From NCBI GenBank assembly GCA_004195035.1, contig SGBD01000006.1:1-61680 (forward strand): a stretch of DNA of 61,680 nucleotides, written 5' to 3'. The notes under the pieces are model-generated. The model was given only the letters and a program-made list of their open reading frames with translations, made no database searches and was not told the DNA's origin. The stretch is from Candidatus Acidulodesulfobacterium ferriphilum. Lineage in GTDB: Bacteria > SZUA-79 > Acidulodesulfobacterales > Acidulodesulfobacteraceae. This document shows, in pieces, positions 11,858 to 26,534 of the stretch. Each line of letters starts with the position of its first letter. Positions within the stretch are counted from its first letter, which is position 1. The position numbers and the translations under genes were made by a program.

Positions 11858-12406
11858 CTACCACCAATATTCTGGATATTTTCGGTATTTAGAAAGATTG
11901 TTAACGAGAAGCGCCACCATTAAAAGAATAAAAGCTCCCAAACCTGCAGGCATTAAAGCGTAAAGAAAACCAAGCTTGTATATTCCTTTTCCGCCTATAA
12001 CGGCTATAAGCGCGGTAGCCCCTCCGGGAGGGTGAAGCGTTTTTGTCGCATGCATAAGCATAATCGCGAAAGAAACTGCAACGGCAGAAGCTAAAGGCAT
12101 ACTGATATGCCCGAGCAGCTTATAACTTGCCACGCCTACAAAGCCTGAAAGTATATGTCCCCCTATAAGATTTCTCGGCTGTGCAAGGGGAGTTTTTATC
12201 GCGCCGTATATAAGAACGGCGGAGGCGCCGAACGAACCTATAAGCAGAGTCAGGTCGTACGGATTGAAAAATTTTGCCGATAAATATGCAACTACGCCTA
12301 TACCTATAATAGATGCGAATCCCGACCAAAAAATTACGTGAAAGCTTACGCCGGTCGGACTCTGCCCTCCGCCTTTCATTCTGCTTACGTATTCCTTAAA
12401 CCACAT
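11858..12406 (-). CDS. HPP-family integral membrane protein
   Basis: 182 residues from the ATG at 12406, chosen because GAGGA lies 8 bases upstream; a GTG 5 codons earlier is also open. Four hydrophobic helices are visible, and the family motif HPPGGATALIAVIGG sits between helices 3 and 4. HPP proteins are cytoplasmic-membrane proteins; some plant and cyanobacterial members transport nitrite, but the bacterial substrate is generally unknown. The gene directly follows a CBS-pair protein (41-base gap), a partnership common in this family and often found as a single fused protein. That suggests adenine-nucleotide sensing of the membrane protein's activity. Confidence 0.88.
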   Translation of the reverse strand: MWFKEYVSRMKGGGQSPTGVSFHVIFWSGFASIIGIGVVAYLSAKFFNPYDLTLLIGSFGASAVLIYGAIKTPLAQPRNLIGGHILSGFVGVASYKLLGHISMPLASAVAVSFAIMLMHATKTLHPPGGATALIAVIGGKGIYKLGFLYALMPAGLGAFILLMVALLVNNLSKYRKYPEYWW

Positions 12407-12446
12407 TTTTAAAATCCTCACAGATAACTTAATTTACTTTGTAATT

Positions 12447-13049
12447 TTAATTTTTCCCGATATATTTTATTATATCGGTCATAGATATTACCCCTGCCAG
12501 TTTTCCGTCTTTGCCTATAACCGGCATACTTTTTATTCTCTTTTCGTTAAATATTTCCGCCGCCTTTTTTATGCAAGTATCTACGGATACGGTAATTGCC
12601 GGCGAAGTCATTATGTCTTTAATATTGTTTACGTCTATAGTCCTGTGAAGATGCGGGGTAGGTTCGCCGATAAGATGCCTCACCACATCTCTGAAGGTAT
12701 GTTTCTTTACGACTCCCGCGCTGGTTAAAATATCCGAATCCGAAATAAACCCCGTAACAAAATTTGCGTCGTTAACTACTGGGGCGCAGGTTAAGCCGTT
12801 TTCCGCAAGTAAATTCATCGCCGAATTTATACCTGAATCCTCGGATAAGGAAATAAATTTTTTGGACATCACCTCCCCCACGGTAACACTGTGAACCCTC
12901 TCTATCGCTAAGTCGAATGCATGCCTGTAAATCTTCATAAAATCGTCGATAGTTATGTCTATAAAGGTTTTGTGTTCTTCAAAGGCTTCTCTGATGTCTT
13001 CTTCCGTTATTTCGACACAGTTTTTCTCTTTCTTTTCTCCGTTTTCCAT
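12447..13049 (-). CDS. CBS-pair regulatory protein
   Basis: 200 residues. Residues about 1-55 are a charged helical region (ITEEDIREAFEEHKTFIDITIDDFMKIYRHAF). Two CBS motifs follow: VGEVMSKKFISLSED...CAPVVNDANFVTGFISDSDIL and IKDIMTSPAITVSVDT...MPVIGKDGKLAGVISMTDIIKYI. CBS pairs bind AMP/ATP or similar nucleotides. The gene sits immediately upstream of the HPP membrane protein on the same strand and probably regulates it. Confidence 0.92.
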   Translation of the reverse strand: MENGEKKEKNCVEITEEDIREAFEEHKTFIDITIDDFMKIYRHAFDLAIERVHSVTVGEVMSKKFISLSEDSGINSAMNLLAENGLTCAPVVNDANFVTGFISDSDILTSAGVVKKHTFRDVVRHLIGEPTPHLHRTIDVNNIKDIMTSPAITVSVDTCIKKAAEIFNEKRIKSMPVIGKDGKLAGVISMTDIIKYIGKN

Positions 13050-13138
13050 AATGATAATGTAAATTTGATTAATTAAATTTTTATTAAGTTATAATATGCG
13101 GCATATAAAAAATATGTGACTTTTGTCATATATTAAAT

Positions 13139-14254
13139 TCAAAAATTTATTTCGAGCAAAACTCTTTCTCCAGAAATATCTTTTAAGTTTTTAGCCTTAT
13201 ACATTCTTACCGCCCCAAAACTGCATATATCCTTACACAGGTTGCATCCCGTGCATAAAAACGGCTCCAGTAATATCTTGCTTTTTTTACGGCTTAAAGC
13301 GCCTGTCGGGCATAATTCCCAGCAATTTCCGCAAAAAACACAATTTTTATTTAGTTTCGGAAGCCTTATATTTAGCGGCGACACTAAGTCTTTATTGTTT
13401 TTTAAAAAAAGAAAGATGCTCCTGCGCTTCTCGATAAAAAGTTTATTAATTTTTTTATCGTTTTTATCGCCCAAATCTATATAATTAGAATAAAGCTCGG
13501 AAAAAGGCAAATCGTCGACGGATAAGTCCTGCGCAAATTTTTTCGCGTTATCTTTAATACCTTTAATGGAATTTTTAAAAAACTCCCTTCTGCCCAAACT
13601 TTCATTTTTACCCTTACCGCCGTCATTTTTACCGCCTGTTTTTATGCCGTCTTTCATCCCTCCTGTTTTATTATCGTCATTTTTTAAGGCATCCAAAAAT
13701 GAACGGGCATCGAACTCGCTAATGTTTATCTCTTTGAAATTTTCCTCCGCATTCAAAAATCCGGCTATTTCTTTTATCCTTTTAATAGTTTTGTTATGAA
13801 AATAGCTATATTTGCACGAATCGCAATCCCCCGTAATAAAAAATAAATTATTCCCCTCTTTCAGGCAGGTAATTATATCTAAGGTATCCGCCTCATAAAT
13901 ACATTCGGCCTTATCATTAATTTTTTCTATGTTTGTTTTGGAGCAAAAATAGTATATGCCGTCATTTACCGCCAGATATTTTTTTGGCTCTTCTTCTGTT
14001 TTTTGTTTAACGCCGAACACATAATTGGGACACATATAAAGGCAGGCATTGCAGTTTGTACAGCTTTTAAGAATTTGAATATCGGTATCGGTTATTTTTA
14101 TCGACAAATCGGGGCATCTGTCTATACATTCATAACAACTCGCCATCGGGCTTTTCAGCCTGACGCAATAATCCGGGCTGACGGATATGCCGCCGCTTCC
14201 GCTTCCGTTATTTAAAAATTTTTCCAATAAATTAAAAAAGCTTAAGGGATTCAT
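13139..14254 (-). CDS. Cytoplasmic multi-cluster ferredoxin-like protein
   Basis: 371 residues. The N-terminus has Cys groups CYECIDRC and CTNCNACLYMC, one or two [4Fe-4S] sites. A middle region contains a CDSC pair, then a low-complexity Lys/Gly/Asp linker (about residues 195-220). The C-terminus has two typical ferredoxin motifs, CVFCGNCWELCP and CTGCNLCKDICSFG. GRREFFKNSIKGI after the linker resembles the RR-x-F start of ferredoxin domains in other Fe-S proteins, but it is internal and not a Tat signal. It lies 5 bases after mobB, so it is translated with Mo-cofactor genes. Likely an electron carrier for a Mo or sulfur enzyme; the partner is not evident. Confidence 0.75.
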   Translation of the reverse strand: MNPLSFFNLLEKFLNNGSGSGGISVSPDYCVRLKSPMASCYECIDRCPDLSIKITDTDIQILKSCTNCNACLYMCPNYVFGVKQKTEEEPKKYLAVNDGIYYFCSKTNIEKINDKAECIYEADTLDIITCLKEGNNLFFITGDCDSCKYSYFHNKTIKRIKEIAGFLNAEENFKEINISEFDARSFLDALKNDDNKTGGMKDGIKTGGKNDGGKGKNESLGRREFFKNSIKGIKDNAKKFAQDLSVDDLPFSELYSNYIDLGDKNDKKINKLFIEKRRSIFLFLKNNKDLVSPLNIRLPKLNKNCVFCGNCWELCPTGALSRKKSKILLEPFLCTGCNLCKDICSFGAVRMYKAKNLKDISGERVLLEINF

Positions 14255-14259
14255 GGTAT

Positions 14260-14811
14260 TTAAACGCCTATTATCTCTTTTTCAATGAAACCGGCGATCT
14301 TTTCGGTATCGTTTATATTTATTTGGGGTATTTTTAAATCTTTAATAAAATCGTCCCCGCAAACAAGAATCAAATTAGGGTCGTTTTTATATTTAATATC
14401 CATATCAGGAGAAATTTCTTTTCTTAAAAGTTCTATCTTGGGTATATTTAAGTCCTTAAACCCTTCTATTATAACTATGTCGGAACCGCCGAAAAATTTT
14501 AAGACTATATCTTTAACTCCGTGCGGCTTTTCCGCCTCCTTTACATCGCTAAAAAAAGCCATTTTTTTCTCCGAAAGAAGCATGGTTGAGTAGGCGCCCG
14601 CGTTTTTATGCCTCCATGAGTCTTTTCCCTGAATATCGGCATCGAAATCATGGTCGGTATGCTTGAGGGATGAAACCCTGTAGCCCTTTTCCGCCAGTAT
14701 TTTTATTATCTTTTCGATTAAGGTAGTTTTGCCCGTACCCGATTTGGCGATAAACGAAACGATTTTAGGAGGGGGTTCCGCGTTATTAATATTTGCGTTA
14801 TTTTTTGCCAT
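14260..14811 (-). CDS. mobB: Molybdopterin-guanine dinucleotide biosynthesis adaptor protein MobB
   Basis: 183 residues. MobB is a GTP-binding accessory protein in attachment of GMP to molybdopterin, the step catalysed by MobA. The P-loop AKSGTGKTTLIEKII is at about residues 22-36; SSLKHTDHDFDAD, SWRHKNAGA and IVIIEGFKDLNIPKIEL are the family's other signatures. It is a single-domain form, here separate from MobA (18013-19014). The short gaps to dusB upstream (23 bases) and the ferredoxin gene downstream (5 bases) indicate one transcription unit. Confidence 0.95.
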   Translation of the reverse strand: MAKNNANINNAEPPPKIVSFIAKSGTGKTTLIEKIIKILAEKGYRVSSLKHTDHDFDADIQGKDSWRHKNAGAYSTMLLSEKKMAFFSDVKEAEKPHGVKDIVLKFFGGSDIVIIEGFKDLNIPKIELLRKEISPDMDIKYKNDPNLILVCGDDFIKDLKIPQININDTEKIAGFIEKEIIGV

Positions 14812-14834
14812 AATCTTAGTTTATAACATTAGTT

Positions 14835-15824
14835 TCAGGCGAAATCCCTCTCGTCTGTTATCGTTTTTAATATGCTTACCAATTCTTTTTCATTTTGGGC
14901 ATTATTGACCCCACTTCTTAAACCCTTTGATCCCTTAAATCCCCTTAAAAAACTGTACAGATGAGGCCTGATGAGTTTATGCCCTCTTTCTTTTCCGTAA
15001 AACAGGTTCATTTCTTCCATAAGCTCTATAATTATGTCTGTTTTTAGCTTAATATCGATTAAATATATTTTTTCCGGAAGAGTTCCCGCGTTCAAATATT
15101 CCGTAAATATCCACGGCTTGCCGATTGCGCCCCTTGCAAACATAATTCCGTCGGCAGAGATAAAATCCTGTATCCTCAAGGCGTCATTTATGGTAAAAAT
15201 ATCGCCGCTTGCATATACCGGAATAGCAATTTCTTCCTTAAGCTTTTTTGTCAGCGAGTGGTCTGCCGCTCCTCCAAACATAAGCGACCTTGTCCTCGGA
15301 TGAAAAAATACCGCATCGACGCCGTATAATTCCGCAGTTTTACCGATTTCCAAAAAATTGACCGAATTTTCATCAAATCCGCTTCTGATTTTAATCGTAA
15401 AGATAGAATCTTTAACTGCCTGCCTGACGGCTTTAACTATAAGGGAAAACAACTTTACATCTTTCAAAATTGCGCTGCCCGCCCCTGTTTTCACAACCTT
15501 TTTGACGGGACACCCCATATTCACATCGATAACTTTAAAACCGTTATCGGCCGCCTTTTTTGCGGCTTGAGCCAGAATAACGGGGTTGCTTCCAAAAAGC
15601 TGGATACCGGTTTTATCTATGTCGTTTCCGGCTTTAAGCAGTTCCAGCGTCCCTCTGTCGTTATGCAAAAAACCGTCGGCGCTTATCATTTCGGTAAAAC
15701 AAAATTCCGCTCCGTATTTTAATGCCATTTTCCTGAAGGGATAGCCTGTTATCCCGGCCATGGGGGCAAGAATAGAACTTCCTATATGTGGATTTCCGCC
15801 TTCGCGGGAATGACAATTTTTCAT
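14835..15824 (-). CDS. dusB: tRNA-dihydrouridine synthase (DusB-like), N-terminus built from a repeat
   Basis: 329 residues of the FMN-dependent Dus family, which reduces uridines in tRNA. Family features: ILAPMAGITGYPFR, VDVNMGCP-like IDVNMGCPVKKVVKTGAGSAIL with the catalytic Cys, TIKIRSGF, FHPRTRSLMFGGAADHS, IPVYASGDI and GIMFARGAIGKPWIF. The first 13 residues, including CHSREGGNP, are the translation of a dispersed palindromic repeat (15788-15815), with native-looking sequence beginning at IGSSILAPMAG. No ribosome site precedes the ATG; TATTATATAAA lies immediately upstream, so the message may be nearly leaderless. Confidence 0.93.
   Translation of the reverse strand: MKNCHSREGGNPHIGSSILAPMAGITGYPFRKMALKYGAEFCFTEMISADGFLHNDRGTLELLKAGNDIDKTGIQLFGSNPVILAQAAKKAADNGFKVIDVNMGCPVKKVVKTGAGSAILKDVKLFSLIVKAVRQAVKDSIFTIKIRSGFDENSVNFLEIGKTAELYGVDAVFFHPRTRSLMFGGAADHSLTKKLKEEIAIPVYASGDIFTINDALRIQDFISADGIMFARGAIGKPWIFTEYLNAGTLPEKIYLIDIKLKTDIIIELMEEMNLFYGKERGHKLIRPHLYSFLRGFKGSKGLRSGVNNAQNEKELVSILKTITDERDFA
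15788..15815. repeat. Half-copy of the CATTCCCGCG dispersed repeat inside dusB
   Basis: GGATTTCCGCC-TTCGCGGGAATGAC matches the inner arm of the MITE-like element at 6520-6546, with a few changes. It is read through in frame as CHSREGGNP at the start of dusB. Confidence 0.7.
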
Positions 15825-15850
15825 TTTATATAATAAGCAGCAAATAAATA

Positions 15851-16087
15851 TTAATTAGGAAAGCTTGCGGGATTGTCCTGCGGATATAAGCTTACGGCAT
15901 AATTAAGGTATTTTATAAATTCTTCTTTTGTAGGCGCTTTTCTGATTCCTATGTTAAAAACTTTCCTCTTTTTTTCGTACCATTTGCCGAAATCTTCTTC
16001 GCTAACATCCCTGACCTCTAAGAGCAGCTGTTCTATTATTATGCTCAATCCCGTTTTATTGTCAAAGCTTGCGCTATTTTCATCCAT
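15851..16087 (-). CDS. Small protein of unknown function
   Basis: 78 residues from the ATG at 16087, which has GGAG 9 bases upstream; that GGAG overlaps the stop codon of the preceding oxidoreductase gene. The protein is acidic, probably helical, without cysteines or membrane segments; a typical part is VRDVSEEDFGKWYEKKRKVF. I do not recognise the family. Tight coupling (the oxidoreductase stop is 5 bases upstream) suggests it is made together with the FAD/NAD(P) oxidoreductase and the ferredoxin and could be an accessory to them. Confidence 0.75.
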   Translation of the reverse strand: MDENSASFDNKTGLSIIIEQLLLEVRDVSEEDFGKWYEKKRKVFNIGIRKAPTKEEFIKYLNYAVSLYPQDNPASFPN

Positions 16088-16092
16088 AAACT

Positions 16093-17421
16093 TTATCTCC
16101 AATTTGTTCTTGAAAACTCCGGCAGGTCTTCAAAATCACCCCTTATAGCATACCCTTCGTTTATATTATATATTTCAAATTCGTTATCTATAACAAAGGA
16201 ATATATATTTCCGTTTAAAAATTCATCTTTATATTTAAGACATTTTAACCCCTGCCTTATAATAGCCGATAATATTCCGCTGCCGGCAATATCTCCGAGT
16301 AAAATTGCCCCGACTAATACCTCTCCGTCATAAACAAGCTTTCTATATACCTTTTCGCCGTCCTGAAAAATATATACTTTTTGCGACTCGTTGGCAGGAT
16401 TTGTAAGGCCTATAGTTACTATAGGCAATCCGTATATTTCAACCGAATTTAGCCCCATCCCTCCCGGATATTCCCTGTAAACCCCCGCCATATTTGTGCC
16501 CGCCACCCTTCCTTCTTCGCACGCAAGCGGAACAATGGCAATAATGTTCGGGCGTTTATTAATAACATCGTAAATAACCGCGGCATCCCCTCCGGCGTAA
16601 ACATCTTTTACGCTTGTCATCATTGTTTTATCGACAATAATACCTCTGTCTATCTTTACGCCGCTTCCCTCGAGAAAACCTACATTGGGCCTGACGCCGA
16701 CGCCGACCACGACAATATCCGCAACAAGTTCTTTCCCGCTTTTCAAGATAACGCTCACAGGGTTGCCCGATTCATCCAGATTGATTTTTGTAACGGTTTC
16801 GCCAGTTGCGGTATCGATTCCATTCTCGTTTAACCTTTTTGCCGTCATATTTCCGGATATTTCATCTAATGCCAAACCTAAAACGCGGGGTAAAAGCTCC
16901 ACGATAGTAACATGAAGTCCTAACCCCCTTAAACCTTCCGACGCCTTTAAACCTATTAATCCGCCTCCGACAACGATAGCTTCTTTATGTTTAGCGGCTT
17001 TGGCCGCCCTTTCCATTTTTTTCGCGTCATCGAACCTTGTAAATGTCCCCATCATAGGGGACTCAGGATTAAATCCCTCGGTCGGCGGAACAAAGGGGGT
17101 TCCCCCCGGTCCGACAAAAAGTTTATCGTAGCCTAATTTAGTCCCATCCTCGATAATAACCTCTTTGGAGGCTGTATCGACAGAAACTACTTTTTTTCCC
17201 AGCATCAGTTTAAAATTGTTCTTTTCGTAATAGTCGTCATCTTTGTACCAGATGGTTTCATCCGTTGTTTTTCCTTCCAAATAGTAAGAAATTAAAGGCC
17301 TCGCGTATGCCCTATAATTCTCATCCGATATTATCGTAACCTCTCCTATTTTATCGAACCTTCTTATAGCATCGGCACAGGATAAACCTGCGTACGAATT
17401 TCCAATAATTACATATTTCAT
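16093..17421 (-). CDS. FAD/NAD(P)-dependent oxidoreductase (pyridine nucleotide-disulfide family)
   Basis: 442 residues. N-terminal FAD site GNSYAGLSCADAIRR, NAD(P) site AIVVGGGLIGLKASEGL, and DVYAGGDAA of the second FAD contact define the NirB-N/NADH-oxidase/rubredoxin-reductase group. There is no redox-active CxxC and no NirB-type C-terminal Fe-S or sirohaem domain. It directly follows a four-cluster ferredoxin gene (17438-17992, 16-base gap). Such ferredoxin plus flavoprotein pairs pass electrons between NAD(P)H and a partner enzyme; by location the partner is one of the Fe-S/Mo proteins of this cluster. Substrate inferred from context only. A ribosome site AAGGGG precedes the ATG. Confidence 0.85.
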   Translation of the reverse strand: MKYVIIGNSYAGLSCADAIRRFDKIGEVTIISDENYRAYARPLISYYLEGKTTDETIWYKDDDYYEKNNFKLMLGKKVVSVDTASKEVIIEDGTKLGYDKLFVGPGGTPFVPPTEGFNPESPMMGTFTRFDDAKKMERAAKAAKHKEAIVVGGGLIGLKASEGLRGLGLHVTIVELLPRVLGLALDEISGNMTAKRLNENGIDTATGETVTKINLDESGNPVSVILKSGKELVADIVVVGVGVRPNVGFLEGSGVKIDRGIIVDKTMMTSVKDVYAGGDAAVIYDVINKRPNIIAIVPLACEEGRVAGTNMAGVYREYPGGMGLNSVEIYGLPIVTIGLTNPANESQKVYIFQDGEKVYRKLVYDGEVLVGAILLGDIAGSGILSAIIRQGLKCLKYKDEFLNGNIYSFVIDNEFEIYNINEGYAIRGDFEDLPEFSRTNWR

Positions 17422-17437
17422 AATCTAATCCCCTTTT

Positions 17438-17992
17438 TTATCCTTTTATGTTGGATTTTATATACGGACCGTAAATTTTTTTTGCTACCATAAGTCTTCT
17501 TTCGTAAGAATAGTTTTTAATCCCGGTTCTCTTTAAAGCCCCTTTTTTGCATGCTTCTACACATTTTGGAGTATCTTCGTCGGCACATCCGTCGCACTTT
17601 GCGGCAAAATGATCTTTCCCTACCCTTTCAATCGCCCCGAACGGACATGACATCACGCACATCCAGCATCCGACGCATTTTTTATAATTAGTAACAGTCC
17701 AGCCCGTTTCCATATCCTTATATCTTGCTCCGGGCATGCAGGCATCCACGCATGGCGCTTCCTCGCAGTTATGGCATATTATCGGAAAAAATTTATCGGC
17801 CTTTTTCTTTATATTAATCCTTGCCCCTGCGTATTTAGAACCATATTTCTCTCTCATATGCGTTTCGCATGCCTTAATGCAGGACATAAATTCCTCGCCC
17901 TCGCAACCGTTGCATTTTGAGGGATAAAGCATTATTTCGATCTGGTTTTTCTTGAGATCTTCTTTTAGGTTGGTAAGTTTATTTTTATTCAT
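17438..17992 (-). CDS. Four-cluster ferredoxin subunit (DmsB/NrfC/CooF type)
   Basis: 184 residues, no signal peptide. Cys groups run CNGCEGEEFMSCIKAC, CHNCEEAPCVDAC, CVGCWMCVMSC, then CDGCADEDTPKCVEAC, the layout of DmsB-like subunits that carry up to four [4Fe-4S] clusters. The protein relays electrons between a catalytic subunit and a flavoprotein, here probably the oxidoreductase encoded next. A GAGG ribosome site precedes the ATG. It follows mobA by 20 bases. CooF-type proteins of CO dehydrogenase have a similar flavoprotein partner, but no CO dehydrogenase is visible in the window. Confidence 0.88.
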   Translation of the reverse strand: MNKNKLTNLKEDLKKNQIEIMLYPSKCNGCEGEEFMSCIKACETHMREKYGSKYAGARINIKKKADKFFPIICHNCEEAPCVDACMPGARYKDMETGWTVTNYKKCVGCWMCVMSCPFGAIERVGKDHFAAKCDGCADEDTPKCVEACKKGALKRTGIKNYSYERRLMVAKKIYGPYIKSNIKG

Positions 17993-18012
17993 AAAAACCT
18001 CTTATTATATTA

Positions 18013-19014
18013 TTATAATGTTATTATATTCTTCAAATCCGGCAATATTTTTATTAATTTATTGCCCATAAAATTTAATCCGTTTTTAAGATAAGCGGCG
18101 CTGTCCTTTTTAAAAAAACCGATAGATTTTTCAAAATATATATAATTCTTTGTTGTAGCATAAACCCACCAATAATATAGCGCCTTTGCCATAATACCGT
18201 AAGGTATGTTTTTAGGGTTTTTAACATCAAAAAATTTGTTTACTTTTTTAATTTTAACACTTTTTGCATTATCTTTCATTAAAGATTTATTATATGCCGA
18301 AAATACTTTTTTACCTTTCGCCATTTTATCTAAATCCTGTTTATTATTTATATTTATAAATATATAAGGCGGCAGATTTGGGCTATTTTCTGCTATATCC
18401 AAAATGGAATAATAATACACGGACGGCAGAAGTCTTAAAATATTTATCGCATCGTTAAACAAAAAATCATCTTTTAGACCGAGAGAATAATTATTGAGCA
18501 AGTCTAATATATGAATAACATCCTTTCTTTTATAGCATGCAAGCAAAGGTTCGACAACGGAATCCGGCCACAGCGGCACAACAGCCCCTGCCTTCTCTGC
18601 TTTAGCCTTGCTTATCAGCGCCCTTGCAGCCTCCGTATTAAAAAACGGGGCATCGCACTCCATGACCAAAATAAATTCGCCTGTCAGACTCTTAATGGAA
18701 CTAAAAATACCCTTGACGGGACCCCTGAGCCCGCAATTTATATCATCGGAAATTAACTTAATATTAAATTTTTCTTTTTTATTTTTTCCGCATCTTTTTT
18801 TAATTATTTTATCCACCGCCAAGCCATACTCTTTTTTTTGTATCTCTTCCCTGACGGATATAACTATATCGGCGCTGACATCCAATGCGACATTTAATGC
18901 CCTTTCAATAAATGTAAGTCCTGCAAAATGAAATAGCGCCTTATTTTCCCCAAACCTTTTGGATTCGCCGCCCGCAAGAATAAGGCAGCTTAATTCCTTA
19001 TGTTGTTTAATCAT
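18013..19014 (-). CDS. mobA: Molybdenum cofactor guanylyltransferase MobA with C-terminal extension
   Basis: 333 residues. The first ~195 match MobA: LAGGESKRFGENKALFHFAG (GTP site), then LISDDINCGLRGPVKGI and EFILVMECDAPFF with the metal-binding Asp, and GAVVPLWPDSVVEPLLACY. It transfers GMP to molybdopterin to form the guanine dinucleotide used by DMSO-reductase-family enzymes. The C-terminal ~135 residues (after about LPPYIFININNKQDLD) are an extra, basic, aromatic-rich domain (ALYYWWVYATTKNYIYF) that ordinary MobA of ~190-200 residues lacks; I do not recognise it. The ATG overlaps the previous stop codon by 4 bases. Confidence 0.88.
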   Translation of the reverse strand: MIKQHKELSCLILAGGESKRFGENKALFHFAGLTFIERALNVALDVSADIVISVREEIQKKEYGLAVDKIIKKRCGKNKKEKFNIKLISDDINCGLRGPVKGIFSSIKSLTGEFILVMECDAPFFNTEAARALISKAKAEKAGAVVPLWPDSVVEPLLACYKRKDVIHILDLLNNYSLGLKDDFLFNDAINILRLLPSVYYYSILDIAENSPNLPPYIFININNKQDLDKMAKGKKVFSAYNKSLMKDNAKSVKIKKVNKFFDVKNPKNIPYGIMAKALYYWWVYATTKNYIYFEKSIGFFKKDSAAYLKNGLNFMGNKLIKILPDLKNIITL

Positions 19015-19499
19015 TTCAAATCCAAACGCAATTTTCCGCGTTGACCGTGTCCTTCGCTGAGTGTAACCTCAACATAGTTAAGCGTTTTAAATAATTCGTC
19101 TTCCTTCAGATCGCGGGCAAGCTCTTGAGCGAAGTAAACCGTGAGGTCTTCGATGTTCAGAGACGGGATTTCGATTTTAAAAATATCGGTTTTAGGAATC
19201 AGGTAAAGCTTATTATTTATTTCTATCCTGTAATGTGAATCCTTGTCCTCAATACGCTGAACACTTTCGGGATAATTTGCAACCAGAATTCTATCTTCAA
19301 AAGCAGCGCATATTCTTTTAGTCACGGCTTTCAACTTATATAAATGAACAATCCTTCTTTTATCGTCAAACTCGCCGTCAACCAGAACATCGACATAATG
19401 AAAATGGGGATGTATCCTTGAACAATCGCCTTTTCCCGGCACGATGTGCATGCATTCGAATGTTAAATCGGCCTCTTTCCCGATTAGTTCTACTATCAT
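19011..19499 (-). CDS. 6-pyruvoyl-tetrahydropterin synthase-like protein
   Basis: 162 residues. I assign the PTPS/QueD fold from the pattern of H18 and the HPHFHYVDVLVDGEFDD block (H32/H34 in place of the family's HGHNY zinc histidines), IEDLTVYFAQELARDL in place of the 'PTxENLA' helix, and VEVTLSEGHGQRG in the place of the final strand that ends in a Glu. Family members act on dihydroneopterin triphosphate or make 6-carboxytetrahydropterin for queuosine. The catalytic Cys is not clear here, so the reaction is unknown. It lies between moaA and mobA, overlaps mobA by 4 bases, and so probably belongs to pterin or Mo-cofactor metabolism. Confidence 0.6.
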   Translation of the reverse strand: MIVELIGKEADLTFECMHIVPGKGDCSRIHPHFHYVDVLVDGEFDDKRRIVHLYKLKAVTKRICAAFEDRILVANYPESVQRIEDKDSHYRIEINNKLYLIPKTDIFKIEIPSLNIEDLTVYFAQELARDLKEDELFKTLNYVEVTLSEGHGQRGKLRLDLK

Positions 19500-19515
19500 A
19501 GTCTATAAACCTCTT

Positions 19516-19708
19516 AAATTATTCATAAAAAATCTTTTAGTAAACAAAAAATCTGGATTAACGCTTCGCTCTCGGCTTTTCAAGCCTCGTGAAGTCTTTT
19601 TAAGGACTTTCCTGCCTTCGCAGATATTCCCGTCTGCGTTTATCAAAGCATGTCTTTGATGCAGACGGGAATGACAATCTAAAATTATTCATAAAAAAAA
19701 TCTTTTAG
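19516..19708. repeat. REP-like insertion flanked by a 25-base direct repeat of the moaA 3' end
   Basis: AAATTATTCATAAAAAATC... occurs at 19516-19540 and, with two extra A, at 19682-19708, where it forms the last codons of moaA. Between them lie about 141 bases with a strong hairpin (CCCGTCTGC at 19628 with GCAGACGGG near 19660-19668). The hairpin core also occurs at 61496-61577. There is no coding potential. Confidence 0.65.
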
Positions 19709-20527
19709 ACAGCCGTTTGGAAGAAGCCTTAAGCCTGAGCATCTACCGCTGGAAGATTCGCGCAAATTTTTTATGTTTTTGCAAAGGGTTGCTTTAATTC
19801 CATTTATTTTAAAAAACTTCCTGTCGTTTATTTTTTCGGCATTAAAATCTAAACCGATTTTTCGTAATGTTTTAATCGGGTCGGCATAATATTTTCCGTA
19901 AATATCTGCCGTTGTTTTATCCGATAATTCGATAAACTGCAAGTCAAATTGATTTTTTGCGCAGTAATCTATCATGTTTTTTAAGCTTCGTTTATTCGTA
20001 TTTAAACCCTTTAACAGCAGGTTATCTATCTCGACCCTGTATCCGTTTTTTTTTAAAAGATCAAGTCCCGATAAAACATCGTTAAACAAGTTTTTACCTG
20101 TAATGAATTTATAATTTTCTTCATTCAGCGTATCGAGGCTCACCGATATTTTGCTTATTATGTTTGGGCTTAAATCTTTTATTCTTTTTTTTATAAGCGT
20201 TCCGTTAGTCGTAATAAATATGTCTATGTCTCCGATATGCTTCACGCTGTATAAGAGATTCTTCAAATCCTTAAACAAAAGCGGCTCTCCGCCGGTAAAC
20301 TTTACCTTTCTCAACCCATAATCTTTTACCGAATATATCGTGTTGATTATGTCCCCTGTTTGAATAACCTTAAGGCTTTTTGACGAAATCCCCTCGTTAT
20401 GACAATAAAAACACTTCTCGTTGCAATTACCCGCAAGAGATATTCTCAAAGAAGGTATTTTAAATTCGAATTTACCGGTTTGAAATTCTTCTTTGCCTGT
20501 AAATGTCCTGAATAAAAACGGTCTCAT
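19685..20527 (-). CDS. moaA: GTP 3',8-cyclase MoaA-like radical SAM protein
   Basis: 280 residues, shorter than the usual ~325. MoaA opens Mo-cofactor synthesis by rearranging GTP. The radical-SAM site is C35-x3-C39-x2-C42 (NCNEKCFYCHNEG); VKFTGGEPLLF and SVSLDTLNEENY follow in family order. The C-terminal substrate cluster normally uses C-x2-C-x13-C; here the visible cysteines are in ATLCKN, SGRCSGL and NGCLK, so the spacing differs and the tail ends in DFFYE. The last codons lie in a 25-base duplicated segment (19682-19708), so the C-terminus may be altered. It is 2 bases after moeA, on the same strand. Confidence 0.85.
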   Translation of the reverse strand: MRPFLFRTFTGKEEFQTGKFEFKIPSLRISLAGNCNEKCFYCHNEGISSKSLKVIQTGDIINTIYSVKDYGLRKVKFTGGEPLLFKDLKNLLYSVKHIGDIDIFITTNGTLIKKRIKDLSPNIISKISVSLDTLNEENYKFITGKNLFNDVLSGLDLLKKNGYRVEIDNLLLKGLNTNKRSLKNMIDYCAKNQFDLQFIELSDKTTADIYGKYYADPIKTLRKIGLDFNAEKINDRKFFKINGIKATLCKNIKNLRESSSGRCSGLRLLPNGCLKDFFYE

Positions 20528-20529
20528 TT

Positions 20530-21816
20530 TTACCTGATAATATCGTAATCGTTTAATGTGACTTCCACAGTGCTTCCAGCCTTAATAACGGTTGTATTTT
20601 CATCCATAACAAAACTTCCCGCCGCCTTGATCATGGGACTTAAAGACCTTGCCGCTGAAGGGGGTTTGGGAGACGGTATAACGGAGGCAAGCAAAACGCC
20701 TTCCTCCTGAGCTATTTTAACCTGAAAATATTTCCTGACGCCCTCTTCGGATGACGCGTCCTCCGTAAGTTTGGCAAAAACCGCAGGATATTTTTTATAA
20801 ATATTTTCGCTATTCATCATCTTTTGCATATACGGTCTTACAAAGATATCAAATGTTATTATAGCCGAATACGGCCAGCCTGCAAGAGCAAATATAGGCG
20901 TTCCATAATTTAAAACCCCAAAAGATGTAGGCTTGCCCGGCACAAGCCTGACTCCGTGAAACAGAAGTTTTCCAGTCTTTTCGATAGCGGACGGCATCAA
21001 ATCGTAAAAGTTGGTAATTTCTTTATTTTCTAAGACTAAAAAACTGGCGCCTGTGCCGCCGGTTGAAATTATCAAGTCATATTTTTTGGATTTATCGGAA
21101 TAGGCAAGGGTATCGATTAATTTATCTAATTTATCCTCTATCGCTCCGATAACCTCTGGAATACCGCCGGCATCTTTAATAAGGGATTTAAGAACCGTCG
21201 TATTTATATCATAAATTTTGCTGCCGCTTATATTCTCGCCGGGGGATGCCAGTTCATTTCCGCCGGATAATATTCCCACTACGGGTTTTTTGTAAACGGA
21301 AACATATTTCAACCCGATGCCGGATAGCGCCGCAATATCGCAAATTCTTATCTTATGTCCTTTTCTAAAAAGTAATTCTCCCGCTTTAATATCGTCGCCG
21401 ACAGGAGATATATAGGAACCCTTTTCTATTTTTTTTCTATATATCATTTGTCCGCCGGAATATTCATCGGCGTCTTCGATCAAGATTACGCTGTCCGCAT
21501 TAGGAGGGACAGGGGCGCCCGTAGTCACAAAGGCCGCTTCGCCTGAAATTAAAGGCTTTAATTCATCCTGGTAACCGGCGGTGATTTGACTTTTAACTTT
21601 AAATCTGTCCAATTTTTTTTCGGAAACATCGGAATACATTAAAGCAAAACCGTCAACCGCAGACCTGACAAACGGAGGGACATTATTCGCAGGAACAATA
21701 TCTACGGATATAATCCTGTCTAAGCTATCCTCGACGGGTAATTCTTCCGATAACTCTACCCTTTTTATATTCCCAAAGGCTAATTTTAATAAGTCTTGCG
21801 TTATTTTACCCTGCAT
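20530..21816 (-). CDS. moeA: Molybdopterin molybdenumtransferase MoeA
   Basis: 428 residues. MoeA inserts molybdate into adenylylated molybdopterin. Conserved parts in order: SLDRIISVDIVPANNVPPFVRSAVDGFAL, GEAAFVTTGAPVPPNADSVI, VVGILSGGNEL (domain III start), IISTGGTG with the metal-binding region, RLVPGKPTSFG and FALAGWPYSAII. The C-terminal domain IV ends near VTLNDYDIIR. It precedes moaA by 2 bases and is separated from the Fe-S genes upstream by a terminator-like hairpin, so moeA-moaA may have their own promoter. Confidence 0.97.
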   Translation of the reverse strand: MQGKITQDLLKLAFGNIKRVELSEELPVEDSLDRIISVDIVPANNVPPFVRSAVDGFALMYSDVSEKKLDRFKVKSQITAGYQDELKPLISGEAAFVTTGAPVPPNADSVILIEDADEYSGGQMIYRKKIEKGSYISPVGDDIKAGELLFRKGHKIRICDIAALSGIGLKYVSVYKKPVVGILSGGNELASPGENISGSKIYDINTTVLKSLIKDAGGIPEVIGAIEDKLDKLIDTLAYSDKSKKYDLIISTGGTGASFLVLENKEITNFYDLMPSAIEKTGKLLFHGVRLVPGKPTSFGVLNYGTPIFALAGWPYSAIITFDIFVRPYMQKMMNSENIYKKYPAVFAKLTEDASSEEGVRKYFQVKIAQEEGVLLASVIPSPKPPSAARSLSPMIKAAGSFVMDENTTVIKAGSTVEVTLNDYDIIR

Positions 21817-21827
21817 ATTTTTATGAA

Positions 21828-21857
21828 TAAAAAGCCGGCATAAAATAACCTGCCGGC
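21828..21857 (-). terminator. Rho-independent terminator candidate after the 81-residue gene
   Basis: On the minus strand GCCGGCA and its complement pair around a 10-base loop, and the second arm is followed by TTTTT. It lies between the small gene (ends 21911) and moeA (starts 21816). Confidence 0.6.
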
Positions 21858-21910
21858 ATAATAGTTTAATTTTAATCCAAGCTATAGTGAAACAGCGAAA
21901 TCAAGCTTAA

Positions 21911-22156
21911 TTAAAAGTATGGCTCTACCGCGTAAGTCTTAATGCCTGCTTTTTTAACTAAATTTATTGCCTTTTCTTCATCTTTTAAACCAACGAATAT
22001 AGTAGCATGATAAGGCGTCACGCTTGCAACATTCCTTCCCACAATATGAATATTGGCTTTTTTTAGAATTTCTTCGGCCTTATCGAAGTCTCCGTTAAGA
22101 TATTCAACCCTTATTGGCGCGTTATAAATGGTTCCAACAACTCCAATATCTGCCAT
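21911..22156 (-). CDS. Small ACT-like protein of unknown function
   Basis: 81 residues with a strong ribosome site (AAGGAGG). The order strand, strand, helix (FDKAEEILKKANIHIVG), strands (VASVTPYHATIFVGL) and helix (DEEKAINLVKKAGI) is compatible with a small ferredoxin-fold or ACT-like domain; this is a structural guess from pattern, without a recognised family. It follows the ferredoxin and Mo-enzyme genes and lies between two hairpin terminators, so it may be an abundant small transcript of its own. No cysteine, so it is not an Fe-S protein. Confidence 0.8.
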   Translation of the reverse strand: MADIGVVGTIYNAPIRVEYLNGDFDKAEEILKKANIHIVGRNVASVTPYHATIFVGLKDEEKAINLVKKAGIKTYAVEPYF

Positions 22157-22202
22157 ATAAAATCCTCCTTCTTTTAAGTTTCAAAATAATTAATCATTAA
22201 AA

Positions 22203-22235
22203 TTAAAAATCCGGCGGCTACGACACGAGCCGCCG
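22203..22235 (-). terminator. Rho-independent terminator after the ferredoxin subunit gene
   Basis: AGCCGCCG pairs with CGGCGGCT around an 8-base loop; on the minus strand the second arm is followed by ATTTTTAATTTT. It lies directly after the ferredoxin stop (22245) and before the 81-residue gene. Confidence 0.7.
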
Positions 22236-22244
22236 CAAATAATT

Positions 22245-22898
22245 TTAGCCGACCTTGACGGTGTTTTCCGTGTCCTGTACATTGGAAGTACCCATCGTCG
22301 AATGAGGGGTAATAAATCCAAAAAGATGTTCGGTCAGTTTCCTTGCCGTCTTTTCTCTATCGATTGTCGATATCCTGTTTATATTGCCAAACCATAATGC
22401 ATCGGTCGAACAAAGCGTAACGCATGCCGGCAAAAGTCCTTCGTCAACTCTGTGCTTGCAATAATCGCATTTTGTGACCTTTCCGGTTGCGTCGTTAAAC
22501 TGGGGAGAACCAAATGGACAGGCATGGATACAGGATTTACACCCGATACATGTATTTGGGTCGTTAAACACGATACCGTCGGCGCGTTTTTGCATAGACC
22601 CTGTCGGGCAGGCTTTTACGCAGGCTGCGTCGTCGCAATGAAAGCAGTTCATAGGCAGATACACTGTTTTTAACTGTCCTTTTTTTACGAAATAAGGCCC
22701 GACCTGAATGACTCTCATTCTGCGGGGACCTACGGGAAGATTGTGCTCCTTTTTACATGACACTTCGCATGACATACAGCCTATACACCTATCTACATTT
22801 ACCTTCATTGAATATTTTGGAGTGGAAGATTGAAGCGTAATCCTGGACGCCCTTTCCTCTCCAAGATGAAACCTATCGAATCCGTATTCTGATGACAT
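22245..22898 (-). CDS. [4Fe-4S] electron-transfer subunit of the molybdopterin oxidoreductase
   Basis: 217 residues, no signal peptide. Sixteen cysteines in the DmsB/PhsB layout: CIGCMSCEVSC, CFHCDDAACVKAC, CIGCKSCIHAC and CDYCKHRVDEGLLPACVTLC. It would carry four clusters between the Mo catalytic subunit and the electron partner. It is encoded 131 bases after the Mo-enzyme gene, with a clear AGGAG ribosome site, so both form one unit. A C-terminal ~35 residues (FITPHSTMGTSN...) lacks a membrane helix, and no NrfD/PsrC-type membrane anchor gene is adjacent, pointing to a soluble enzyme. Confidence 0.9.
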   Translation of the reverse strand: MSSEYGFDRFHLGEERASRITLQSSTPKYSMKVNVDRCIGCMSCEVSCKKEHNLPVGPRRMRVIQVGPYFVKKGQLKTVYLPMNCFHCDDAACVKACPTGSMQKRADGIVFNDPNTCIGCKSCIHACPFGSPQFNDATGKVTKCDYCKHRVDEGLLPACVTLCSTDALWFGNINRISTIDREKTARKLTEHLFGFITPHSTMGTSNVQDTENTVKVG

Positions 22899-23029
22899 AT
22901 CTATACTCCTAATTTTAATTTTATTTAATTAATTTAATCGATGTTTTATATTTTTATAAATAAATTTATAAGAGCCGGGCGGAGGCGGCTTTCATTGCCA
23001 CAACCGGGCATATTATTTTATTTATAATG

Positions 23030-25573
23030 TTAATATCTGCGAACATCACAGGAATCAGGCGTACATTCTACGGGTTCTTTGAAGTTTACAAGCTTCTTCC
23101 ACCCTATGCTAAGCTCATGGTATTCCTTCCAGTGATCCTTCCATTTTCCGACGATAACATTTTTATCCTGAAACTTTGGATCCCAAACCTCCGGGAATTT
23201 CTTTTGCAAGAATTCCGTGACCCTTTTGGCCGTCTCATCAGGATTAGAGTCGCCCTTTCTATAAACCCTGCAAAGGATAGCCTTAAATTGTATCTGGCTA
23301 TAAACAGGATCTTTTATTATATCGTCTATAACGGTATTAATAGACTCGTACGGATGAAAGGGCTGATACCTGTCAAACCCGAAGTTTGCCCATATCCCGT
23401 CTTCGGGAACCATCTCTGTAACCCATGCCGGACCCTCTACCCAGCCTCTGTCATTTTCTACGATAACCATGTCTCCATCCTCGATACCCATAACAGCGGC
23501 GGTTTCAGGGTTTATTTCGATATTCCTATCCGGTTCGAGTTCGTCGTTCCAAGGCCACCAGTGTCCGCCTTCATGGAAGGACTGAGCAATACGCGTTGTA
23601 TTTAGCACCAATGGAAACTTTTTGGCCCTTTCTATATTTCCGAGCGGGGATTCCGATCCCTCAACCTGGGTTGGGACGCTATACCAGCCGATTTTTTCCA
23701 ATGCCTTTGAGGCAAGTTCGATTTTTCCTGACGGAGTTGGAAACCTTTTATCAGATTCGGGATAGTTTTCTCCCTCTTTATACATTATCCATTTTCCTCT
23801 TAATACCGCTTCGTCATCCTGGAACACGGCCTCTTTCTTTGAGAGGACAGGCCACATAAGTCCGCCCTTGGGATTTTTTTCAGGATTTAAAACATCATAA
23901 GTAATGCCTCTTGTAAGCGGCTCCTGCTCATTAAAGAAGTCGGTCATCTTAATTTCGTTAACCCTTCCTTTATCTGGACCATCTTGATAATAGCCCCATG
24001 GATTAAACTCTACCTTATCGAAATGTCCAACCTGCCCTTTAAGCCTTTTTGCAAGACCGTCGAACACATCGATATCTGGCCTGTGTTCATGCTGATAAGG
24101 TATTATTTTATTGTGCCACTGTAATAATCTGTTATTGCCGTGATGGCAGATACTGTCGGTTTCCACGGAAATCGCTATCGGAAATGCGACATGGCTGAAC
24201 ATATATGTATGGTTTGGGTATATAGAAAGATGAATATTTATAATATTCCTCTTCATCGCCTCCTCCATTTTCCATGAATTCGGAAACTGGGGCAGATGAT
24301 CGCCGTTCCATATTATACCTTTAACCGGATACGGTTTTTCATACATCATCGCATTTATTATGGCTGGAACGGAACTGTCCCCCCATGATATTAATTTATC
24401 GGTTATCTGAGGCCTTTTAGACTCGGGCAGAACTTTTAAATCGTTTCCATAATTTAGCGGAGGACGACAATTATGAAGCCAGTTCCAACCGCCGCCTTTA
24501 ACGCCTATAGAACCTGTAAGGGCTAAAAGAGCCGCGATAGATCTGTTTACATTGTTAGAGTTATAAATCTGCGCGGTGCCTAAGTTGCCGGTAACCGATG
24601 CAGGCCTTGCGGAACCGAATCTTCTTGCTGCCTCTACAATCATTTCTTTAGGCACATATGTAAGCTTTTCCGCCCTTTCGGGTGTCCATTGAGCGCATTC
24701 TTTGGCGTACTCTTCAAATCCGATAACCCATTCATCGACAAATTTTTTATCGTAAAGTTTCTCTTTAATAATAATATTCCCCATTGCAAGGAACAAAATT
24801 GCATCCGAACCGGAACGAATTCTCATTCCAATATCGCACTTCGACAATGTTGCGTTAAAGCGGGGGTCAACGCCTATTACAAACGCTCCGTTATCTCTGG
24901 CATCTAAAAGATGGGTCATAGTTATTGTTTCCTGAGCCGCCATATTTGTTCCCACGACTAAAATGCATTTTGAATTCTTCCAGTCCTGGGATGGATTCAT
25001 AAGCCTGCCAAGACCTTTTGCGCCAAAGACATAATTCATCGATACACCGGGACTTTCGCAGCAAATAGGACCCTGTCCGTAAACATTAGGAGTGCCGAAT
25101 ATTTTTCCAAACCTTGCACCCCCCTCTTTGTTTCCAAAGGAAGACCTTCCCGTTCTAAAAACCGTCAAGGCCTCAGGTCCATATTCTTTGGTTAATTTAA
25201 TTAACCCTTCGGCGGCAAAATCGAGGGCATCATCCCATGAAACTCTCTTAAAATCATCGGTTAACGATTTTCTCATCACAGGATAATGCACCCTTAAGGG
25301 GTCATACCACCATTGAATCTGCCCGACGCCTTTTGAACAAAGTCCGCCCCTGTTCTGGGGATGCTCTGAATCACCCATTACATCGACAATCTTGCCGTCC
25401 TTTAAAAATATTTTAAGCCCGCAGCCGCTTTCGCACATATTGGTGCAGGTGGAATAACGAACGGTATCGTAATCTTTGGATGATTCTTGCGGACGATGGT
25501 CAGGTTTTATTTTCATCAGCCTGTTATCTTTGACGCGCAAAAACTTTTCACTTTTTAACTCCTCAAAATCCAT
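23030..25573 (-). CDS. Cytosolic molybdopterin oxidoreductase (DMSO-reductase family catalytic subunit)
   Basis: 847 residues. The N-terminal [4Fe-4S] site is C43-x3-C47-x3-C51-x27-C79, followed by SWDDALDFAAEGL. Two adjacent cysteines (171-172, GPICCESPG) lie where the Mo ligand is expected. KCILVVGTNMAAQE, GMRIRSGSDAILFLAMGNIII and the C-terminal molydopterin-dinucleotide domain (IEINPETAAVMGIEDGDMVIVENDRG) follow. There is no Tat signal, so it works in the cytoplasm. By style it is near the Phs/Psr/tetrathionate and acetylene-hydratase branches; SoeA-like sulfite dehydrogenase is another possibility. Substrate unknown. Ribosome site GGAGG. Confidence 0.88.
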   Translation of the reverse strand: MDFEELKSEKFLRVKDNRLMKIKPDHRPQESSKDYDTVRYSTCTNMCESGCGLKIFLKDGKIVDVMGDSEHPQNRGGLCSKGVGQIQWWYDPLRVHYPVMRKSLTDDFKRVSWDDALDFAAEGLIKLTKEYGPEALTVFRTGRSSFGNKEGGARFGKIFGTPNVYGQGPICCESPGVSMNYVFGAKGLGRLMNPSQDWKNSKCILVVGTNMAAQETITMTHLLDARDNGAFVIGVDPRFNATLSKCDIGMRIRSGSDAILFLAMGNIIIKEKLYDKKFVDEWVIGFEEYAKECAQWTPERAEKLTYVPKEMIVEAARRFGSARPASVTGNLGTAQIYNSNNVNRSIAALLALTGSIGVKGGGWNWLHNCRPPLNYGNDLKVLPESKRPQITDKLISWGDSSVPAIINAMMYEKPYPVKGIIWNGDHLPQFPNSWKMEEAMKRNIINIHLSIYPNHTYMFSHVAFPIAISVETDSICHHGNNRLLQWHNKIIPYQHEHRPDIDVFDGLAKRLKGQVGHFDKVEFNPWGYYQDGPDKGRVNEIKMTDFFNEQEPLTRGITYDVLNPEKNPKGGLMWPVLSKKEAVFQDDEAVLRGKWIMYKEGENYPESDKRFPTPSGKIELASKALEKIGWYSVPTQVEGSESPLGNIERAKKFPLVLNTTRIAQSFHEGGHWWPWNDELEPDRNIEINPETAAVMGIEDGDMVIVENDRGWVEGPAWVTEMVPEDGIWANFGFDRYQPFHPYESINTVIDDIIKDPVYSQIQFKAILCRVYRKGDSNPDETAKRVTEFLQKKFPEVWDPKFQDKNVIVGKWKDHWKEYHELSIGWKKLVNFKEPVECTPDSCDVRRY

Positions 25574-25622
25574 TTTTTTACCTCCATTTTTAGAATTTTT
25601 TAAAATTTTATAAGCAATATTG

Positions 25623-26534
25623 TTAAGTTAGCTGAGCAAAATGACCGCTTCGCTTTCGGAAACCTTCTGCTTCCTCATGAAGTTCCAAAGGAACTTTACC
25701 TTCTTTAGTTTCGTCGTTAATTATCAAATCACCGCAACCATCCATGCCGAACAAAAATCCTATAAACTCGATAAGTCCGATTACCGGTGCAAAAACATCG
25801 AGGTCCGATAATTCGACGCCGTCCTTAATATTTTTTTCGCACATAGAGCATACCGTAACTATATAATCGGAATCGGTCTCGTCAGCTTTTTGGTTGATTA
25901 ATTTAAAAAAGGTGCTGATGCTGCCTACGTTTTCAACTCTTTTTGAATGCACAGGGGTAGTGTTCTGTAATTTTTCGCCGCCGCAACATTCTCCGTATAA
26001 GTTAACATTTGCGCCGAGAGAACTTAGGATATCTTTTAAAATATCAATTTTTTGTCTGTCGTTATAACAACCTGTATAAAGCAGTATTGAATGGCCTTTT
26101 AATTTCCTTGCGGCGTTGTTTAAGAGATTTTTAGATATATCATGGCAGGCGATAATATCGATAAGATGAACAGCTCCCGTAGAGCCGTTCGTAATTTTTT
26201 TCAGGTTTGCATTGAAAGGTTTAAGGCTATACTCGGCTTGATTTTCGAACATTGAATTTGAGTTTATTATTTTAAGGGCATCGTTTACCTGCTTAACGCA
26301 AACCCTGCAACCCGAATACAAAAAGTCACCGCCTCTCTTCTGTGAAATACCCAGGTTTCTAAGCGGCATTACAACTTTATTAAAAAAACTCGGCTTATAA
26401 TGGGATGGCGGGGCTCCGCAACAGTTCCATTCAGAAATCAATTCAACTTCAATACCTAATTGTTCGAATATGACTTTTAAATTTTTATTGGGGGATTCTA
26501 TGCAACCCGGGAAATATGTAATCTTTTTATTCAT
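25623..26534 (-). CDS. HdrB-like CCG-domain protein
   Basis: 303 residues with two cysteine-rich CCG domains: PGC...WNCCGAP...SGCRVC in the first half and TGCYN...ECCGGEKL...VCSMCEKN in the second. CCG domains bind unusual Fe-S clusters and, in heterodisulfide reductase subunit B and relatives, reduce or oxidise disulfides or sulfur carriers. No transmembrane segment or signal peptide. It lies 50 bases upstream of the molybdopterin oxidoreductase gene on the same strand, so the two are probably expressed together. The start codon lacks a clear ribosome site. The C-terminus, after FLFGMDGCGDLI, is a short charged tail. Confidence 0.85.
   Translation of the reverse strand: MNKKITYFPGCIESPNKNLKVIFEQLGIEVELISEWNCCGAPPSHYKPSFFNKVVMPLRNLGISQKRGGDFLYSGCRVCVKQVNDALKIINSNSMFENQAEYSLKPFNANLKKITNGSTGAVHLIDIIACHDISKNLLNNAARKLKGHSILLYTGCYNDRQKIDILKDILSSLGANVNLYGECCGGEKLQNTTPVHSKRVENVGSISTFFKLINQKADETDSDYIVTVCSMCEKNIKDGVELSDLDVFAPVIGLIEFIGFLFGMDGCGDLIINDETKEGKVPLELHEEAEGFRKRSGHFAQLT

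Follow-up and report, generated by a model that had tools for sequence, protein, structure and literature searches.

A conserved, apparently undescribed operon for a putative cytosolic molybdenum enzyme in sulfur-metabolising prokaryotes

The gene cluster described here lies on the minus strand of contig SGBD01000006.1 of Candidatus Acidulodesulfobacterium ferriphilum, between positions 11,858 and 26,534, and resembles several known redox systems in part. The window analysed is the entire contig of 61,680 nucleotides; the source genome measures 1.87 Mb. The cluster encodes a catalytic subunit of the dimethyl sulfoxide (DMSO) reductase family, called the Mo subunit below. PhsABC and PsrABC likewise combine a DMSO-reductase-family subunit, in which the Cys ligand is aligned with that of the Mo subunit, with a four-cluster ferredoxin, and sulfur chemistry is suspected here too. 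Unlike them, the present system has no twin-arginine translocation (Tat) signal, no NrfD or cytochrome b anchor, a clade of its own with 100/100 support, and a predicted NAD module in place of the quinol link. SoeABC and SreABC are cytosol-facing Mo enzymes of sulfur oxidisers with a ferredoxin subunit, but their membrane anchor, SoeC or SreC, is absent from the operon; SoeA and SreA were compared by description only.

In AorABC of Aromatoleum and in PadI/PadH of phenylglyoxylate dehydrogenase, an oxidoreductase, a polyferredoxin and an FAD subunit deliver electrons to NAD+. The operon contains a polyferredoxin and a PadH-like FAD subunit that may form a module of this type, whereas the catalytic subunit of those systems belongs to another family (tungsten aldehyde oxidoreductase or 2-oxoacid oxidoreductase). 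NAD-dependent formate dehydrogenase (FDH) and hydrogen-dependent CO2 reductase (HDCR) give the best profile score and are among the closest solved structures, but the catalytic His and Arg are missing here, and the NAD module is PadH-like rather than FdhB- or NuoF-like. HdrB, SdhE and sHdrB share with the HdrB-like protein of the operon two CCG motifs for non-cubane [4Fe-4S] clusters, but the latter stands beside a Mo enzyme and has no HdrA or HdrC partner.

The observations presented below suggest, with moderate confidence, that the product of the operon is a cytosolic, NAD(H)-linked oxidoreductase with a molybdenum or tungsten bis(pyranopterin guanine dinucleotide) cofactor (Mo/W-bisPGD), which acts within dissimilatory sulfur metabolism and most likely has a sulfur oxyanion as its substrate. 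The operon is conserved among sulfur-metabolising prokaryotes and apparently undescribed. As the first-pass annotation had supposed, the literature searched gave no match to it, and the literature on Nitrospirae, Sulfobacillus and Hydrothermarchaeota contains nothing direct on the enzyme. Molybdenum is not mentioned by Tan et al. 2019 (PMC6776010), and for the second, anchor-less putative tetrathionate reductase that Justice et al. report in AMDSBA1 (AMDSBA1_3_25; PMC4378227), no correspondence with the present locus could be established.

The Mo subunit and its clade

The Mo subunit scores above the gathering thresholds of PF04879, PF00384 and PF01568, and is a member of the DMSO-reductase (MopB/CISM) superfamily. 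All family members share the sequences GP[IL]C[CT]ESPG and GWNWLHNCRP, a short signature usable for annotating the family. In the window protein the first of these is GPICCESPG and contains the predicted metal ligand Cys171, which aligns with the Cys ligand of PsrA. The best named profile is Fdh-alpha with 260 bits (cut-off 666), followed by PhsA with 227 bits (cut-off 694).

In a maximum-likelihood tree of 38 rows, in which sequences of SoeA, SreA, TtrA, ArrA and acetylene hydratase were not included, 22 family members form one clade with 100/100 support and a long stem. This clade is separate from PhsA plus PsrA (100/100), FdhF, HDCR, the genome's own FDH, NapA and DmsA; within it, the enzymes of SZUA-79 and of Bacillota are sisters. 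Membership in the PhsA/PsrA group was rejected on the tree, the profile score and the missing anchor. Judged from their sequences, the Mo enzymes appear to be a deep clade of the DMSO-reductase family without prior assignment. The first-pass annotation had said that placement in a known substrate clade, together with neighbours that are not conserved, would count against a new system; the opposite was found on both counts, in a tree without SoeA, TtrA and acetylene hydratase. Apart from the PhsA reference, plasmid searches returned nothing but distant homologues.

A fold model of the Mo subunit, built from a 19-sequence alignment (mean pLDDT 72), matches FDH-H, NapA, acetylene hydratase and PcrA about equally, with ArrA also similar, and does not discriminate the substrate. 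The closest solved structures in the PDB comparison include FdhF of HDCR.

The operon and its proteins

All genes named in the first-pass annotation were found in their places on the minus strand, with profile support. The order is HdrB-like, Mo subunit, FerB, x81, moeA, moaA, PTPS-like, mobA, Fer2, PadH-like, x83, dusB, mobB and Fer3, and the 3' end is formed by CBS and HPP genes; the gaps between operon genes do not exceed 185 bp. The first-pass annotation had not named x81, x83, dusB, the CBS and HPP genes or moaC. The features are as follows.

25623..26534, minus: HdrB-like CCG protein, first gene of the operon (PF02754, 5.8e-13)
23030..25573, minus: catalytic Mo/W-bisPGD subunit by profile matches, 847 aa, DMSO-reductase family
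22245..22898, minus: FerB, ferredoxin-type electron-transfer subunit, DmsB/TtrB-like, 16 Cys (profile matches)
21911..22156, minus: x81, small ACT-like protein by predicted fold, 81 aa, directly after FerB
20530..21816, minus: moeA, molybdopterin molybdotransferase (profile matches)
19685..20527, minus: moaA-like, GTP 3',8-cyclase (profile matches)
19011..19499, minus: divergent PTPS/QueD-like protein (profile matches)
18013..19014, minus: mobA-like guanylyltransferase with a C-terminal extension (profile matches)
17438..17992, minus: Fer2, ferredoxin-type subunit, AegA/PadI-like, 16 Cys (profile matches)
16093..17421, minus: PadH/AorC-like FAD oxidoreductase (NF045765, 287.8 bits)
15851..16102, minus: x83, 83-aa protein kept after PadH within the SZUA-79 family (synteny)
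14835..15824, minus: dusB
14260..14811, minus: mobB (TIGR00176, above cut-off)
13139..14254, minus: Fer3, multi-cluster ferredoxin with 21 Cys, confined to the family and evolving fast (synteny, Cys count)
11858..12421, minus: TM_HPP membrane protein, 3' end of the cluster
9119..9616, plus: moaC (PF01967, 8.9e-55), nearby on the strand opposite to the operon

The features of the products are those of a soluble system. Sequence inspection revealed neither a Tat motif nor a strongly hydrophobic segment in the Mo subunit, FerB, Fer2 or x81; the only clearly membranous product of the cluster is the terminal HPP protein, and no NrfD-type anchor gene is found among the recurrent neighbours of the Mo loci analysed. 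The claims of the first-pass annotation that the Mo enzyme has no Tat signal and that the complex is soluble and without an anchor gene are thereby borne out. A hydrophobic segment at the C-terminus of the HdrB-like protein was considered as a membrane anchor and dismissed, as it is the usual stretch of CCG proteins and the Bacillota homologue is similar.

The number of Cys residues in FerB and in Fer2 fits four [4Fe-4S] clusters apiece, and Fer2 scores 66.6 bits with the PadI profile. Among named profiles the flavoprotein matches PadH best, at a score below the cut-off of 475. This protein has an FAD motif and a second Rossmann motif of the NAD(H) type, GGGLIG...VTIVE, whose VE ending would by the usual rule favour NAD over NADP; the Cys of CoA-disulfide reductases is absent at its position. 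The NAD(P)-linked flavoprotein module proposed earlier is supported in the form of a probable PadH-like FAD protein.

The HdrB-like protein has two complete CCG motifs (C11/CC38-39/C76-C79 and C156/CC183-184/C229-C232). Its place beside the Mo gene, pointed out in the first-pass annotation, holds in SZUA-79 and in acidic Bacillota, but a core-subunit role is doubtful: only these two lineages have it in that place, and among SZUA-79 loci it is 49-85% identical, a fast evolution that argues against a role in the catalytic core. The status of an obligatory catalytic subunit thus appears unsupported on sequence grounds.

The genes moeA, moaA, mobA and mobB place cofactor makers beside their user, as had been noted. 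The further proposal that the cluster is self-contained is not supported, since moaC is encoded on the plus strand and relatives have moaE elsewhere. MoaE was not found in the window genome (97% complete); most relatives and most Bacillota carriers have it, so that its replacement by the PTPS-like protein was rejected, and its absence is probably a gap in the window assembly. The divergent PTPS-like gene lies within the molybdenum-cofactor operon in the window and in acidic Bacillota, and a normal PTPS gene is present elsewhere (C1:438365).

No match to x81 was obtained in family profile searches. Its predicted fold is ACT-like, beta-alpha-beta-beta-alpha (model pLDDT 76), and the fold matches, with weak E-values, go to ACT domains, against the NapD-like chaperone that was considered; the likely role of x81 is in regulation or assembly. 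The x81 of Hydrothermarchaeum (L116:20252-20593) is extended at its N-terminus, and its gene is situated about 8 kb from that of the Mo subunit. The TM_HPP protein is possibly an anion transporter for the substrate. In a Nitrospirae contig, the gene of a homologue with 53% identity (L114:2210-2758) immediately precedes the Mo gene.

Conservation, distribution and sulfur-gene neighbours

The operon is syntenic in the fetched loci of SZUA-79 (Acidulodesulfobacterales; Candidatus Acididesulfobacter), which represent six genera; the variation concerns mainly the placement of mobB and dusB and a few inserted genes, and contig ends cut some loci. This recurrence shows that the arrangement in the window did not arise by chance. 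The Mo protein is present in 25 of 30 family genomes at 89-98% identity, and its best matches in 31 non-family genomes reach at most 38% over part of the length. Mo and FerB are 87-98% identical within SZUA-79 loci, and the HdrB-like gene is directly upstream of Mo in all 18 sampled family genomes that have the Mo gene.

A comparison with a genome of another genus (G007) shows how unevenly the genes evolve; the AprA and DsrA reading frames (L133) were named from profile positions and the others from sequence reading. The identities are 89% for Mo, 88% for FerB, 82% for PadH and 79% for Fer2. Among the sulfur genes they are 83% for AprA, 85% for AprB, 81% for Sat, 71% for DsrB and 68% for DsrA, and among the others 69-75% for ribosomal proteins, 69% for moeA, 62% for moaA, 51% for HdrB and 42% for mobA. 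Mo and FerB thus exceed AprA, Sat, DsrAB and the ribosomal proteins, and PadH and Fer2 resemble AprA and Sat. Mo, FerB, Fer2 and PadH are therefore constrained together at the rate of core sulfur enzymes and look like a core catabolic unit. The HdrB-like gene evolves as accessory genes do.

An alignment-based scan of GTDB genomes gave 57 Mo loci; it used two short peptide patterns, and members without both would be missed. The carriers are SZUA-79, acidic Bacillota, Nitrospirae, Actinomycetota, Chloroflexota, Altiarchaeales and Hydrothermarchaeota. Identity to the window protein is 62-63% in acidic Bacillota, including Sulfobacillus benefaciens AMDSBA1, and 48-60% in Nitrospirae, Actinomycetota (Thermoleophilia, Gaiellales), Chloroflexota, Altiarchaeales and Hydrothermarchaeota. 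Only one further true member (G312, 54%) turned up among 386 sampled genomes, the next matches being at 30-38%.

FerB follows Mo in 36 of the 38 loci analysed. The gene order from HdrB to PadH is that of the window in five acidic Bacillota loci, and the HdrB-like gene adjoins Mo only there and in SZUA-79. The x81 gene occurs in 22 loci of six groups, PadH in 15 loci, with Fer2 and PadH together in five groups, and a TorD/NarJ-like chaperone in 17 loci of four groups (PF02613 in L099). In Hydrothermarchaeota loci, a second FerB-like gene takes the place of Fer2 and PadH.

Outside SZUA-79 the Mo gene is linked, in four distinct arrangements, to dsr, apr/qmo and lipoate/LbpA genes, which agrees with the earlier suggestion of sulfur-compound chemistry. 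DsrA/B/C/K, LipS1/2, GcvH-like and HdrA-type neighbours were named by profile, and Apr, Qmo, DsrM, ligase and molT by sequence reading. One locus (L107) has the order dsrA-B-C-M-K, molT, Mo-FerB. Another, from Anaerolineales (L108), has GcvH/LbpA-like, LipS1, LipS2 and lipoate-ligase genes, then molT, then Mo-FerB; profile searches did not find dsrA or aprA in this genome. Its region L108:505-9911 comprises three GcvH/LbpA-like genes, LipS1, LipS2, two lipoate-ligase-like genes and one EtfD/HdrD-like gene beside Mo. In L086, an AprA-like end, QmoAB-like genes and a QmoC-like gene precede Mo, and in L089, L090 and L097 QmoAB-like and HdrCB genes stand beside Mo-FerB-x81, with an AprA-like reading frame at the far end of L090. 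Among 33 carriers outside SZUA-79, 18 have dsrA, whereas in the sample of 356 genomes 26 do (Fisher p 9e-11, kinship ignored).

The window genome has aprAB, sat and dsr genes. It also contains a complete sHdr cluster, hdrC1B1AC2B2-lbpA-LipS1-lpl-LipS2 (L129, G000:C2:222000-241900). In the SZUA-79 genus g2 the Mo operon is kept and dsrA is absent in several genomes; one member without dsrA (G004) has apr and a complete sHdr cluster (L130). LipS1 is present in Bacillota carriers, in which dsrA and aprA were not found, and hdr clusters have been published for Sulfobacillus (PMC4378227). An obligate coupling to Dsr was rejected, as both genus g2 and Bacillota carry the operon without dsrA.

Substrate and electron path

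The available information suggests the following course of the reaction. Electrons would be exchanged between the Cys171-ligated metal, where the substrate reacts, and NAD(H) by way of FerB, Fer2 and the FAD of PadH, and the cofactor would be supplied by the products of moeA, moaA, mobA and mobB. From the sequence evidence, the substrate is most likely a small cytosolic sulfur oxyanion, sulfite or thiosulfate. Sulfite would be oxidised to sulfate with reduction of NAD+; thiosulfate would be split reductively into sulfite and sulfide, or made from these two. The HdrB-like protein of SZUA-79 and Bacillota would be a lineage-specific accessory and may serve as the link between the complex and a disulfide or persulfide carrier.

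Sulfite is a cytosolic intermediate shared by the sHdr, Dsr and Apr pathways, and sulfite and thiosulfate were therefore ranked first; both versions are nested within the preferred reading, other sulfur compounds being the remainder. An NAD+-linked sulfite dehydrogenase, which converts cytosolic sulfite from sHdr or reverse Dsr to sulfate and passes the low-potential electrons through FerB, Fer2 and PadH to NAD+, is a tentative proposal. It would suit the sHdr-type carriers (Bacillota, genus g2, the Anaerolineales locus L108) and the Dsr carriers alike, as sulfite is common to them; Bacillota carriers without aprA would need another cytosolic sulfite sink, and the sulfate/sulfite couple, at about -0.52 V, is able to reduce NAD+. 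However, SoeABC-like proteins are assigned to all Sulfobacillus by Justice et al. (PMC4378227), and such an enzyme has no obvious use in Hydrothermarchaeota that resemble sulfite reducers without aprA. Their carriers mostly have dsrA, and aprA was not found in them, so that their sulfite is expected to come from something other than sulfate. This would fit a cytosolic NADH-dependent thiosulfate (or polysulfide) reductase that feeds sulfite to DsrAB, or the reverse reaction making thiosulfate, as would the rank of PhsA as second-best named profile and the Cys ligand shared with PsrA. This version is more doubtful: the Mo clade is well apart from PhsA plus PsrA, the score is under the PhsA cut-off, and sulfur oxidisers with sHdr only have less need of such a reaction.

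Outside sulfur oxyanion chemistry, a soluble NADH-dependent nitrate, arsenate or selenate reductase of the Nas type is improbable. PadH and NirB belong to the same flavoprotein family, NapA, PcrA and ArrA are structurally similar to the Mo model, and the cluster is closed by a TM_HPP gene, from a family reported to include nitrite transporters; but it is sulfur genes that recur among the neighbours, and nitrite reductase or arsenic genes do not. A soluble electron-bifurcating complex, in which the HdrB-like protein acts like a heterodisulfide reductase, had been put forward in the first-pass annotation, and both CCG motifs and the adjacency in all checked SZUA-79 genomes with the Mo gene speak for it. 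It is very improbable, however, as the window operon, whose order is shared by the syntenic copies, contains no HdrA, HdrC, Etf or NuoF-like partner or other bifurcating flavoprotein, PadH is a single-FAD protein, and the HdrB-like gene is absent beside Mo in most phyla and drifts fast. Least probable of all is an unusual FDH or CO2 reductase. The highest profile and PDB scores point that way, but in the Mo family the active-site His after Cys/Sec of FDH is replaced by Cys or Thr, and WLHNCRP stands in place of the PxRGQNN region with its Arg; the score is far under the FDH cut-off, which the bona fide FDH of the same genome (L001) passes with 857 bits and the FDH motifs intact.

Several observations weigh against the reading of the enzyme as an NAD(H)-linked oxidoreductase of sulfur metabolism. 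The best profiles, FDH and PhsA, stay at less than half of their curated cut-offs, so that the substrate is not readable from homology, and the literature searched gave no biochemical or expression report on the enzyme. Fer2 and PadH are absent beside the Mo gene in Hydrothermarchaeota loci, and the NAD link is therefore not universal. Kinship among the carriers inflates the dsrA statistic; some carriers, such as the L096 genome, gave no hit for dsrA or LipS1 in profile searches, and no sulfur gene is found beside the operon in the SZUA-79 or Bacillota loci themselves. Several SZUA-79 genomes with dsrA and LipS1 (G006, G025) are without the enzyme, which is thus not obligatory.

The family is kept across at least six phyla and both domains, and within SZUA-79 it is constrained like AprA and DsrAB. 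The enzyme is probably a missing central step of the sulfur metabolism of its carriers. Should its substrate be sulfite or thiosulfate, and should it work in the cytosol with NAD, it would fill a gap between Dsr, sHdr or Apr and NADH, and the current pathway annotations of the carriers would lack a central step. A rather unlikely extension of this proposal is that acidophilic, subsurface and hydrothermal bacteria and archaea have in common a soluble sulfite dehydrogenase that reduces NAD+ and makes NADH directly from sulfite; if true, sulfur lithoautotrophs with sHdr or Dsr would need no reverse electron transport to obtain the reductant for fixing CO2.

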